NCBI GenBank assembly: GCA_015065165.1
Contig: SVQU01000016.1
Location: 1-39,494, forward strand
DNA from: Oscillospiraceae bacterium
GTDB taxonomy: Bacteria > Bacillota > Clostridia > Oscillospirales > CAG-382
Direction of reading: 5' to 3'
Length of the DNA stretch: 39,494 bases
Shown here: one piece after another, positions 1 through 1,825 of the stretch
Position numbering within the stretch: position 1 is the stretch's first letter
Layout: the number at the start of each line of letters is the position of its first letter
Position numbers and translations under genes: made by a program
Notes under the pieces: model-generated
Told to the model about the DNA's origin: nothing
Seen by the model: only the letters and a program-made list of their open reading frames with translations
The model's database searches: none

Positions 1-133
1 ATAGTTATATTGCCTACGGCAGTTTAAGGCGAATAAAATAACACTGAAGCCGATAGGCTTCAATAACACTATTGCTTTGCAATAATATCACTCCGACGAA
101 GTCGGAATAAAACTTGAAAAGCATTATGCTTTT
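1..133. repeat. Array 1: tandem hairpins with a constant 9-base unit
   Basis: A constant unit AATAACACT occurs at 37-45 and 62-70, with variants AATATCACT at 84-92 and AATAAAACT at 106-114 (steps of 25, 22 and 22 bases). Between the units lie different perfect palindromes: GAAGCC/GGCTTC with loop GATA (46-61), TATTGC/GCAATA with loop TTT (70-84), TCCGAC/GTCGGA with loop GAA (92-106), and AAAAGCAT/ATGCTTTT around one T (117-133). In the first three, the last T of one unit pairs with the first A of the next, so unit and stem interlock. A further small stem, TGCC/GGCA, is at 11-21. Stem sequences differ completely while stem length and spacing are kept, so this is architecture rather than simple tandem duplication. 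The array may continue to the left of the window. No known repeat family can be named from this alone. Confidence 0.75.
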
Positions 134-142
134 GTGTATAAT
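114..142 (+). promoter_or_regulatory. Sigma-A promoter overlapping the last hairpin of array 1
   Basis: The -35 is TTGAAA (114-119) and the -10 is TATAAT (137-142), with a 17-base spacer. The palindrome 117-133 lies almost wholly inside the spacer, and the -35 overlaps the end of the last constant unit. It would drive the four-helix-bundle gene starting at 162. A palindrome in this position could act as an operator; that is inference. Confidence 0.7.
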
Positions 143-161
143 GAACTTTGAGGTGATAAGA

Positions 162-512
162 ATGGCGGATAGTATTTTAAGAGATAAAGCAAAGGAATTT
201 GCGAAAACGGTTGTTTTTCTCTGTCGTGATATGAAATCAAAGCATAAAGAATCGGTTTTGATAAACCAATTACTTCGTTCTGCTACTTCCATTGGCGCAA
301 ATCTACATGAAGCGCAATATGCTCAAAGCACTAATGATTTTATTTCAAAGCTTGAAATAGCCCAAAAAGAATGTTACGAAACAGAATATTGGTTAGAGAT
401 TCTTTTTGAAACAGATTGTATGAATAAAGAAGAATATAAAACATTACAAAACGATTGCGGAGCAATTCGCAGAATGTTGATCTCTTCTCTTAAAACTATT
501 AAATCAAAATAA
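162..512 (+). CDS. Four-helix bundle protein (23S rRNA IVS / Avd-like family)
   Basis: This is a 116-residue protein. The start ATG at 162 is chosen because GAGGTGA (150-156) sits at ribosome-site distance; an upstream in-frame TTG at 114 lies in the -35 box. The family signature QLLRSATSIGANLHEA and the later run of IAQKECYETEYWLEILFE match the four-helix-bundle family. That family includes proteins encoded in 23S rRNA intervening sequences and the Avd accessory protein of diversity-generating retroelements. Avd binds a reverse transcriptase and RNA, but no reverse transcriptase or variable repeat is visible here. The gene has its own promoter, and its 5' side is the hairpin array at 1-133. 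No enzymatic motif is seen. A nucleic-acid-binding role, perhaps with the adjacent hairpins, is inference. Fold assignment is confident; function is not. Confidence 0.88.
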   Translation: MADSILRDKAKEFAKTVVFLCRDMKSKHKESVLINQLLRSATSIGANLHEAQYAQSTNDFISKLEIAQKECYETEYWLEILFETDCMNKEEYKTLQNDCGAIRRMLISSLKTIKSK

Positions 513-598
513 GGGTTTGGGCTTAGACCAAGAGTATTTGTATTGACAAATGCGATGCTGGTTATAATCGAAATAGTAAGATTTTAGGAGAAGATGTA

Positions 599-1033
599 AT
601 GGTTAGGGAAGTATCTGAAAACGAATTAAATAAATTGTTAGAGTTATATTTGCATTTGCACGAGGAAATTATCCCGGAAATGACGGGACATTTAGCAAAC
701 ACTTGGAATACTATTATGCATGACAAAAATCATCATGTTATTGTCAAGGAAATAGACGGAGAAATTGTATCGTCATGCGTCTGTGTGATTATTCCAAACT
801 TGACAAGAAACATAAGGCCTTATGCATTTGTTGAAAATGTTGTTACACACTCGGATTATCGCGGAAAAGGGTATGCAACGGAATGTTTGAATTATGCGAA
901 AACCATTGCAGAAAACGCAAACTGTTATAAAATAATGTTACTTACAGGTTCAAAAAATGATAAAACATTGAATTTTTATACTAATGCAGGCTATAACAGT
1001 ACAGATAAAACTGCATTTATTCAATGGCTATAA
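599..1033 (+). CDS. GNAT family N-acetyltransferase
   Basis: This 144-residue single-domain protein carries the acetyl-CoA pyrophosphate-binding signature YRGKGYA at residues 87-93, after a beta-strand ending VENVVTH. The C-terminal LNFYTNAGY (124-132) is typical of GNAT motif B. Start ATG at 599 follows AGGAG (586-590). TTGACA (543-548) and TATAAT (563-568) lie upstream but only 14 bases apart, so that promoter is doubtful. The gene ends just before a strong bidirectional terminator. The substrate cannot be read from the sequence. Its neighbours are accessory genes, so no pathway is implied. Confidence 0.88.
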   Translation: MVREVSENELNKLLELYLHLHEEIIPEMTGHLANTWNTIMHDKNHHVIVKEIDGEIVSSCVCVIIPNLTRNIRPYAFVENVVTHSDYRGKGYATECLNYAKTIAENANCYKIMLLTGSKNDKTLNFYTNAGYNSTDKTAFIQWL

Positions 1034-1089: not shown

Positions 1090-1137
1090 AACTTCCTTAT
1101 GAGAATTACCCTTTCTAACGTCCGTTTTTGTATATGA

Positions 1138-1632
1138 TTATCTACATTTCAAGCTTTCTAAAAATCCTTTTGATTCCTCGCGGGATTTGAAAATATAAAC
1201 CTCTTTGTCGGAACATTTCTCCAAACGAGAAATAACCTTTGGTCGGTTTTCGGCGTTGTAATTTCGTATAAACTCTAAAAATTCTTCGTCGGTTTCGGTT
1301 TCAACCCAAGGAATATCGGTTCGCGGTTTGCCTTTTCTTTCCCTTATACCGTTAAGACAAACCTCCAAGGGGTAATCCAAAAAGAAAACCGTGTCGCAAG
1401 CCTTTAAACGCGCCTCCATTGAGCTTTCATAGTTTCCGTCGATAATCCATTCGGGTTGTTGCAGAACTTCGCACAGGCGGTTCAAAAAGACCGCTTTGCC
1501 AACGGTGGTTTTGTCGGGATTCCAAAACATCATATCCAAATGAAAAAGGGGCAGGGAGGTTATTTTGTGTAACTCTTTGGAAAAATAACTTTTTCCGCTT
1601 CCGGGACAGCCGATAACAATTATTTTTTGCAT
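1138..1632 (-). CDS. P-loop NTPase (adenylate-kinase-like / topology modulation family)
   Basis: This is a 164-residue protein. Start ATG at 1630-1632 (minus) is preferred: AAAGGAG precedes it by about 6 bases, and an open upstream extension runs into the hairpin array at 1651-1825. The Walker A GCPGSGKS lies at residues 8-15, followed by LPLFHLDMMFWNPDK, the pattern of small FlaR-like 'topology modulation' or adenylate-kinase-related proteins. WIIDGNY and DTVFFLDYP (Walker B-like) follow, then a LID-like arginine-rich stretch (IRERKGKPRTD). Known members are predicted nucleotide kinases with poorly defined substrates. No promoter was recognised between the tRNA-Glu terminator and this gene; the hairpin array fills its 5' region. 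Confidence 0.85.
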   Translation of the reverse strand: MQKIIVIGCPGSGKSYFSKELHKITSLPLFHLDMMFWNPDKTTVGKAVFLNRLCEVLQQPEWIIDGNYESSMEARLKACDTVFFLDYPLEVCLNGIRERKGKPRTDIPWVETETDEEFLEFIRNYNAENRPKVISRLEKCSDKEVYIFKSREESKGFLESLKCR

Positions 1633-1650
1633 AAGGGCTCCTTTGGGTAA

Positions 1651-1825
1651 TGAAATACTTTCCTTTCGGAAAGTATGAAGTAATCCTTTAGGATTATGAA
1701 GTATCTCGCAAAACTCAATATGAAGTAAAATTCGTTCGCTCATATGCCGAAAGCATATTTCATACGCAAAGCGTATTTCATATTGCGAAGCAATATTTCA
1801 TTCGGTCCGCAAGAACGAATTTCAT
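1651..1825. repeat. Array 2: hairpin array with TGAAGT / TTTCAT linkers
   Basis: A run of short palindromes is joined by a common linker. They include a 9-bp stem 1655-1663/1668-1676, TAATCCTttAGGATTA (1681-1696), ATATGCcgaaaGCATAT (1742-1758), ATACGCaaaGCGTAT (1762-1776), ATATTGCgaaGCAATAT (1780-1796) and ATTCG...CGAAT (1800-1820). On the plus strand, linkers in the left part read (A)TGAAGT and those in the right part TTTCAT. The two halves therefore face each other and the whole is roughly an inverted repeat centred near 1705-1745. The right edge runs directly into the tRNA-Glu terminator. The design is like array 1 (variable stems, constant linker), but the linker sequence differs. The array forms the 5' region of the P-loop NTPase gene on minus. 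Confidence 0.75.

Follow-up and report, generated by a model that had tools for sequence, protein, structure and literature searches.

Short tag-repeat arrays are paired with genes of the 23S rRNA intervening-sequence (IVP/S23) protein family

Introduction

What is the relationship between an array of short constant units and hairpins, located at the start of an Oscillospiraceae contig, and the small helical protein gene that follows it? The window analysed here is the whole stretch of 39,494 nucleotides (GCA_015065165.1, contig SVQU01000016.1), referred to below as contig C30 of a 1.67-Mb draft genome; other C numbers denote further contigs, G numbers the genomes compared, and L numbers the loci examined. 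A preliminary description, made from the sequence alone, noted four copies of a 9-base unit at 22-25 base steps, separated by palindromes with unrelated arms, ahead of a four-helix-bundle gene. It proposed that array and protein form one unit, that the protein reads or acts on the hairpins as DNA or RNA, and that it autoregulates through the last palindrome, in the promoter spacer. The protein belongs to the widespread 23S rRNA intervening-sequence or S23 family (PF05635, here IVP), which is of unknown function. We asked whether the array is real, whether it is tied to the gene family, and what kind of element the two may form.

Results

The array is one half of a dispersed element

The observation held in full: the four units and the intervening palindromes are exactly as described, at steps of 25, 22 and 22 nt. 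We refer to the constant unit as the tag, and to the two halves of the element as L (left) and R (right). The features of the region are as follows.

3-11 (+): remnant of the left half, the last L tag AGTTATATT, reverse complement of AATATAACT, an R-tag variant
12-20 (+): hairpin GCC-tac-GGC of the left half
28-38 (+): far arm (X'') GGCGAATAAAA, able to pair with TTTTATTCGCC at the start of the left half (contig C26), enclosing the L tags
37-45 (+): R tag 1, AATAACACT
46-61 (+): hairpin GAAGCC-gata-GGCTTC
62-70 (+): R tag 2, AATAACACT
71-83 (+): hairpin ATTGC-ttt-GCAAT
84-92 (+): R tag 3, AATATCACT
93-105 (+): hairpin CCGAC-gaa-GTCGG
106-114 (+): R tag 4, AATAAAACT, fused to the -35 box
114-142 (+): promoter of the IVP gene, with TTGAAA (114-119), a 17-nt spacer across which lies the palindrome AAAAGCAT-t-ATGCTTTT (117-133), and TATAAT (137-142)
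162-512 (+): four-helix-bundle protein (23S_rRNA_IVP/S23, PF05635, TIGR02436), 116 aa
513-598 (+): segment shared with copies that lack the IVP gene (GGGTTTGGGC..., ...ACAAATGCGATGCTGGTT; C16, C12, C25)
599-1033 (+): GNAT acetyltransferase, probable cargo of the element
1116-1128 (+): TAACGTCCGTTTT, proposed 3´ arm of the split host terminator, whose 5´ arm AAAACGGACGTTA is in contig C26 just before the element

The gene product matches PF05635 at 97.8 bits (5e-28, cut-off 33.8) and TIGR02436 at 107.9 bits (3e-31, cut-off 24), and is 49% identical to the solved homologue 2RLD. The IVP is under purifying selection (dN/dS 0.03-0.06 against two relatives, though dS is high). PADLOC and PHROGs gave no match. 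Window 1-140 folds as RNA with z = -4.3.

The window starts inside a repeat at a contig end, such that only the right half and a remnant of the left half are visible. A search of the same genome with window 1-520 gave 15 places, most near contig ends, and parts of the same array recur at about 13 further places; genome-wide tag counts come from such searches only. The last 127 nt of contig C26 equal window 1-127, and reading through C26 revealed the missing left half. The reconstruction of the window's own copy depends on joining C26 and C30 across this 127-nt overlap, which contig C25 shares. A full copy runs from the host gene through a terminator-like hairpin, TTTTATTCGCC, left tags AGTGATATT separated by small hairpins, and GGCGAATAAAA, to right tags AATATCACT (the reverse complement) separated by other hairpins. 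In contigs C12 and C16 (L017, L004), as in window 513-598, the shared segment GGGTTTGGGC...GCCCAATAAAGCGTTTGTA..ACAAATGCGATGCTGGTT follows arrays with and without the IVP and contains two further small hairpins whose role is unknown.

The hairpin cluster of the left half is matched by Gut-1 RNA (Rfam RF01706), which was listed as a probable ncRNA known only from human gut metagenomes, with no function (PMC2864571). There are 13 hits over the Rfam cut-off (50 bits) in this genome, including the copies in C16, C39, C8 and C24; window 1-140, whose left half is cut off, gave no hit. The window also holds a second array, of another tag type (TGAAATA/TATTTCA), at 1617-1827 on the minus strand, with a Gut-1 hit of 66.8 bits (1752-1827) directly after a tRNA (1862-1933). 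The ORF called at 1138-1743 (-) probably starts inside this array by mis-calling, with its true start further in (MQKIIVIG...). Two nearly identical TGAAATA-type arrays lie in tandem beside a tRNA in contig C28 (27512-27587 and 27735-27810; L043 and L044).

Arrays are enriched upstream of IVP genes

The genome has five PF05635 genes, all directly preceded by such an array, with four different tags: AATATCACT (two genes), TATTTCAT, ACATCATT/AACGATGTT and GATTCCATA/TATGGAATC. Of sixty genomes searched (this one and its relatives), 45 contain IVP genes. A lack of enrichment near this gene family had been put forward in advance as grounds for abandoning the linkage, and enrichment was found: among 80 loci, an ab initio tag-plus-hairpin score of at least 5 was reached in 46 upstream regions, compared to 12 of 146 intergenic upstream regions of other genes (odds ratio 15, p about 1e-15). 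A second set of 77 GTDB loci gave 58, compared to 12 of 798 same-locus windows; this set partly overlaps the first and its controls include coding sequence, so the first test is the cleaner one. A quarter to 40% of IVP genes, depending on the set, miss the hairpin score; many of these carry bare short tags, for example CTTTTCTC...GAGAAAAG or ATTATTCA...TGAATAAT, and some carry none. A tRNA gene lies within 600 nt upstream in 80/147 loci, against 4/643 controls.

Genomes with an IVP gene have Gut-1 in 40/45 cases, and those without in 5/15 (p = 7e-5), a count in which shared ancestry is not corrected for. Three of the 15 relatives without a detected IVP (G001, G003, G014) still hold several Gut-1 arrays, though all are fragmented MAGs. 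A scan of viral contigs with the single protein found no relative, while the phage collection gave two unannotated faecal contigs, one with the same array after a tRNA.

Tag and protein change together while stems are replaced

Among 78 loci with a repeated tag, tag similarity follows protein identity (Mantel r 0.58 for pairs from different genera, none of 2000 permutations as high), in a test that does not model the phylogeny of the sequences explicitly. Pairs at 70% identity or more share the tag in 55% of cases, and pairs at 50-60% in under 1%. The closest IVP in another genus has the same tag in 48/78 cases, with 2.4 expected. In same-tag pairs, the sequence outside the tags is almost unshared (non-tag 8-mers, median 0.038 against a background of 0.013). 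Conservation of stem sequence between strains had also been specified beforehand as an outcome that would point to ordinary repeat decay; between genera the stems are not conserved, and the tag is retained with the protein while the stems are replaced, the opposite of such decay.

The last tag abuts the promoter of the IVP gene

The commonest count is four left and four to five right tags; the idea that five tags match a pentamer was thus not borne out. Automatic tag calling near start codons and in low-complexity sequence produces spurious extra tags, and strict L-then-R order held in only 21/75 automatic calls. In 31 of 39 loci with a clear promoter, the -35 hexamer begins within -5 to +6 nt of the end of the last right tag, and is often fused to it (ATTTCATTGAAA, ATATAACTTGAAA). 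In contrast, the palindrome in the promoter spacer is not conserved: it is imperfect in the second copy (contig C25) and missing in relatives with the same tag, and we dropped the idea that it is the operator. Reading of the loci indicates that a first arm X can pair with a near partner X' or a far partner X'', a pattern that was not tested statistically. By minimum free energy, left and right tags pair into a rod with hairpin side arms (complete array L119, z = -11).

Stem mismatches suggest selection on RNA

In stems with exactly one internal mismatch, G.U outnumbers A.C 33 to 10 on the sense strand (p = 6e-4), while control windows give 396 to 418 and the base composition is balanced. The count is modest, and near-duplicate loci (window and C25) were not removed. 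This points to selection on the RNA of the strand read from the upstream gene toward the IVP, but does not exclude an additional DNA role, which the -35 overlap suggests.

Elements differ between sister species and are associated with terminators and tRNA genes

Between the sister species G002 and G006 (about 90-93% identical), a unit of about 1.8 kb with array, IVP and two ORFs is present in one and cleanly absent in the other, next to a tRNA-like sequence, with GCCAAAA at both ends. This is the only clean filled/empty site; loss in the sister is possible, and the 7-nt repeat could be coincidence. At one tRNA site (L195) the two species have different arrays, only one with an IVP, and at a second tRNA site (L194) one has array plus IVP and the other half an array. 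The orthologous locus of the copy at C42:83.6k was too diverged in the genus for a clean empty site, with several relatives showing plain terminators and one a different array; in G019 (L174) the orthologue of the gene before this element is followed by an array of yet another tag (GAATGAATTCC).

For the five elements of this genome whose two ends could be read (one by joining C26 to the window), the outer ends carry complementary arms followed by a T run, as if the element sat in the loop of an intrinsic terminator. Own ends match in 5/5 cases and swapped ends in 4/20. For the copies in C16, C12, C5 and C8 the contigs end before both arms can be read, and for C25 an arm was not found. Gene-less copies with the same tag are near-identical at unrelated loci. 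Varied single genes follow the IVP (L119, L135, L141, L158, L019 and window 599-1033), with GNAT-like acetyltransferases recurrent, resembling cassette cargo; by eye, another GNAT-like ORF follows the IVP of contig C23. An integron reading was considered because of this GNAT-type cargo, but no integrase or attC core was noticed, and it was not examined further.

IVP genes outside Clostridia are often bracketed by inverted heptamers

We examined plasmid-borne IVP genes from Cyanobacteriota, Bacteroidota, Spirochaetota, Chloroflexota and others. An exact 7-mer is repeated at least seven times within 220 nt on the two sides in 13/19, against 9/264 control windows. A more distant Xcc0516-like subset is weaker, with clear tag arrays in only 3-5 of 8 loci, including one ORF between cas10 and cmr3 and one in Gemmatimonadota. 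Where the same tag lies on both sides, it is inverted in 13 loci and in the same sense in 4. In Nostoc, this gives a tag stem of about 34 bp around the ORF, the plan of an rRNA intervening sequence (IVS). On cyanobacterial, Chloroflexota and other plasmids, IVP ORFs also sit inside defence-like operons (DISARM or other helicase/methylase, type I RM, between cas10 and cmr3, between cas2 and cas1, DUF1156/Swt1-HEPN; L322, L324, L326, L331, L332, L333, L334, L336 and L341), which may explain earlier reports of IVP as CRISPR-linked.

Discussion

Our data support the linkage of array and protein, but the interpretation in the preliminary description is only partly supported. That the hairpins are what is specific is not supported, given that the constant part is the tag and many relatives have bare tags without hairpins, nor is autoregulation through the spacer palindrome; what is conserved is the last tag abutting the -35 box. 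Binding of the protein to the hairpins, the remaining point on which the proposal had been staked, was not assayed. Overall, the association suggests a large, overlooked family of self-spreading elements, and gives many unexplained bacterial short repeats a candidate partner protein.

We think it more likely than not, though far from certain, that the region is the right-hand part of an IVS/S23p-like mobile or selfish element located outside rRNA. Its core would be a pair of inverted arrays of a private 7-9-nt tag (about four left tags and four reverse-complement right tags, in Clostridia mostly separated by exchangeable small hairpins), followed by a gene for a four-helix-bundle protein. Sequence comparison establishes that gene and array occur together, that tag and protein diverge together while stems are replaced, that the last tag abuts the -35 box, that units differ between sister species at the same terminator or tRNA 3´ site, that arrays without the gene are dispersed in the genome, and that outside Clostridia the ORF is often bracketed by inverted heptamer arrays that would form one long RNA stem. 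The mechanism, in contrast, is our inference. Solved homologues of the protein have five chains (2RLD and 2GSC), and one protein, Xcc0516, is described as a homopentamer torus (PMC4990558). By analogy with TRAP, a ring protein that binds repeated RNA triplets, the probably pentameric IVP may bind several copies of its own tag, presented as single strands between hairpins or as a tag:tag' RNA stem, in the transcript running in from the upstream gene. It may also bind the promoter-proximal tag, lowering its own expression, and help the element, and gene-less arrays carrying the same tag, to spread into terminator loops and tRNA 3´ ends. There are no binding, expression or transposition data here. 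A 116-aa helical bundle has no known nuclease, recombinase or polymerase motif and no copying enzyme is encoded in the element, which therefore cannot be called autonomous; how it is copied is unknown, and help in trans is presumed.

Other explanations seem less likely. The array could be a structured non-coding RNA (Gut-1) or composite transcription terminator that serves the host and does not move by itself, with the IVP as a tag-specific RNA-binding regulator or chaperone. The G.U bias, the position of arrays directly after terminators and tRNAs, the strong terminator-like hairpin with which each begins, and the listing of Gut-1 as a probable ncRNA (PMC2864571) are in line with this view. 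However, the same tRNA site carries different arrays or a half array in sister species, one insertion site is clean, near-identical copies lie at unrelated loci in one genome, and the cargo genes after the IVP vary, and we consider this reading unlikely. Simple-repeat growth, in which tags expand by polymerase slippage next to a gene that happens to tolerate it, is the least likely. Heptamer tandem runs outside Clostridia do look like simple sequence repeats, and slippage has been proposed for such repeats (discussed in PMC4679880), but tag orientation inverts between the two halves, the modal 4+4 layout has unrelated stems between tags, the protein is under strong purifying selection, and the match of tag to protein already counts against this reading.

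Two further unlikely possibilities involve an enzyme acting in trans. The arrays could be miniature DNA transposons recognized as ssDNA hairpins by, for example, a Y1/HUH enzyme, with the IVP an accessory or passenger. The short conserved tag next to variable hairpins, the dispersed extragenic copies and the inverted pairs are formally like REPINs, and insertion at terminators suits an ssDNA hairpin target. Yet tags co-vary with the IVP itself, the preference of stems for G.U over A.C is not what ssDNA would predict, and the gene after the arrays is the IVP, not a transposase; no Y1 gene was noted beside the elements read, although co-occurrence was not examined genome-wide. Alternatively, the IVP could act like Avd, docking the array RNA to a reverse transcriptase (RT) of a group II intron, DGR or retron, with insertion by cDNA. 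PF05635 is reported as Avd-like and as the commonest Pfam in one DGR-neighbourhood survey (PMC10053308), and RNA-level selection would fit. No RT was seen in the elements read, none is annotated among neighbours in the plasmid loci, and none is apparent in the ORFs next to the window gene; neighbours in Clostridia were not profiled systematically, and neither RT co-occurrence nor an RNA-templated signature such as 3´ truncation was examined. A diversity-generating retroelement (DGR) was rejected because no RT was seen in the elements and plasmid neighbours read. A CRISPR array, with constant repeats of 23-47 nt, unrelated non-palindromic spacers and cas genes, was also rejected, as the units here are 7-9 nt and the intervening sequences are palindromes.

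A broader hypothesis, which we hold tentatively and consider less likely than not, is that IVP/S23 proteins across bacteria are ring-shaped, tag-specific RNA-binding proteins of a previously unrecognized class of selfish element that spreads through RNA hairpin loops. In this view, each protein owns a 7-9-nt tag, and the scattered heptamer repeats of cyanobacteria, Xanthomonas, Bacteroidota and others, together with Gut-1 RNA and rRNA IVSs, are all footprints of this class. The function and spread of rRNA IVSs and their S23 protein, the purpose of Gut-1 RNA, and the trans-acting partner (if any) of bacterial heptamer repeats are separate open questions, which one protein-tag pairing would link and make testable by a simple binding experiment. 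Tag-specific small rings with many natural specificities could also be useful as RNA-binding modules.

The protein family, rRNA IVSs, Gut-1 and heptamer repeats are each known. In the open-licence literature searched, apart from the Coxiella heptamers, no paper linked IVP genes to tag or heptamer arrays as a unit, and the tag-protein pairing, the identity of Gut-1 as part of IVP elements, the tRNA/terminator location and the inverted flanking arrays were not found. Gut-1 covers 77 model positions and has no assigned function or protein partner in PMC2864571; here it is part of a larger two-sided array tied to IVP genes and their tags. Bacterial heptamer repeats (cyanobacterial STRR, G-rich heptamers of Xanthomonas and Nostoc, TAACTGA repeats; Beggiatoaceae were also covered) share the unit length, the tandem intergenic arrays and some of the same phyla (PMC4692102; PMC4679880). 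No IVP partner is named in the passages searched, and the arrays flanking IVP genes are mostly inverted across the gene; whether dispersed STRRs are identical to IVP tags was not examined genome-wide. REP/REPIN elements and their RAYT (TnpA-REP) transposases likewise combine a short tag beside hairpins, dispersed inverted pairs and a presumed protein partner in trans. They differ in that the partner here is a small helical bundle with no known catalytic motif, the stems are replaced while the tag stays, rather than conserved among copies with a GTAG-type tag (tags here are TGATATT, TGAAATA and others), and there is a sense-strand RNA bias. Avd of DGRs is a related pentameric four-helix bundle (homology stated in PMC10053308). 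Avd binds nucleic acid and RT, but no RT, template or variable repeat was seen here.

Closest is the 23S rRNA IVS with its S23p/IVP ORF, of the Coxiella and Leptospira type. The protein family is the same, the IVS ORF lies within an inverted-repeat stem, the IVS sits in an RNA helix (helix 45), and in Coxiella burnetii tandem heptamers (GACAGAT) of strain-variable number lie just upstream of the S23p ORF (PMC4990558). Enclosure of the ORF by complementary ends was seen at several plasmid cyanobacterial loci, whereas in Clostridia the two complementary tag blocks both lie upstream of the ORF, though split terminator arms enclose whole elements; on this feature the comparison can be read either way. 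Excision from the transcript by RNase III without religation was not looked at, in the absence of RNA data. Location inside a 23S rRNA gene helix does not apply: the window copy lies between a protein gene (C26) and another gene, and relatives lie after tRNAs or CDS. We therefore regard these elements as a variant of the IVS kind, with tRNA 3´ ends, intrinsic terminators and operon junctions as sites instead of 23S rRNA, tag blocks mostly separated by hairpins in Clostridia, their own promoter, probable cargo genes, and many gene-less copies.
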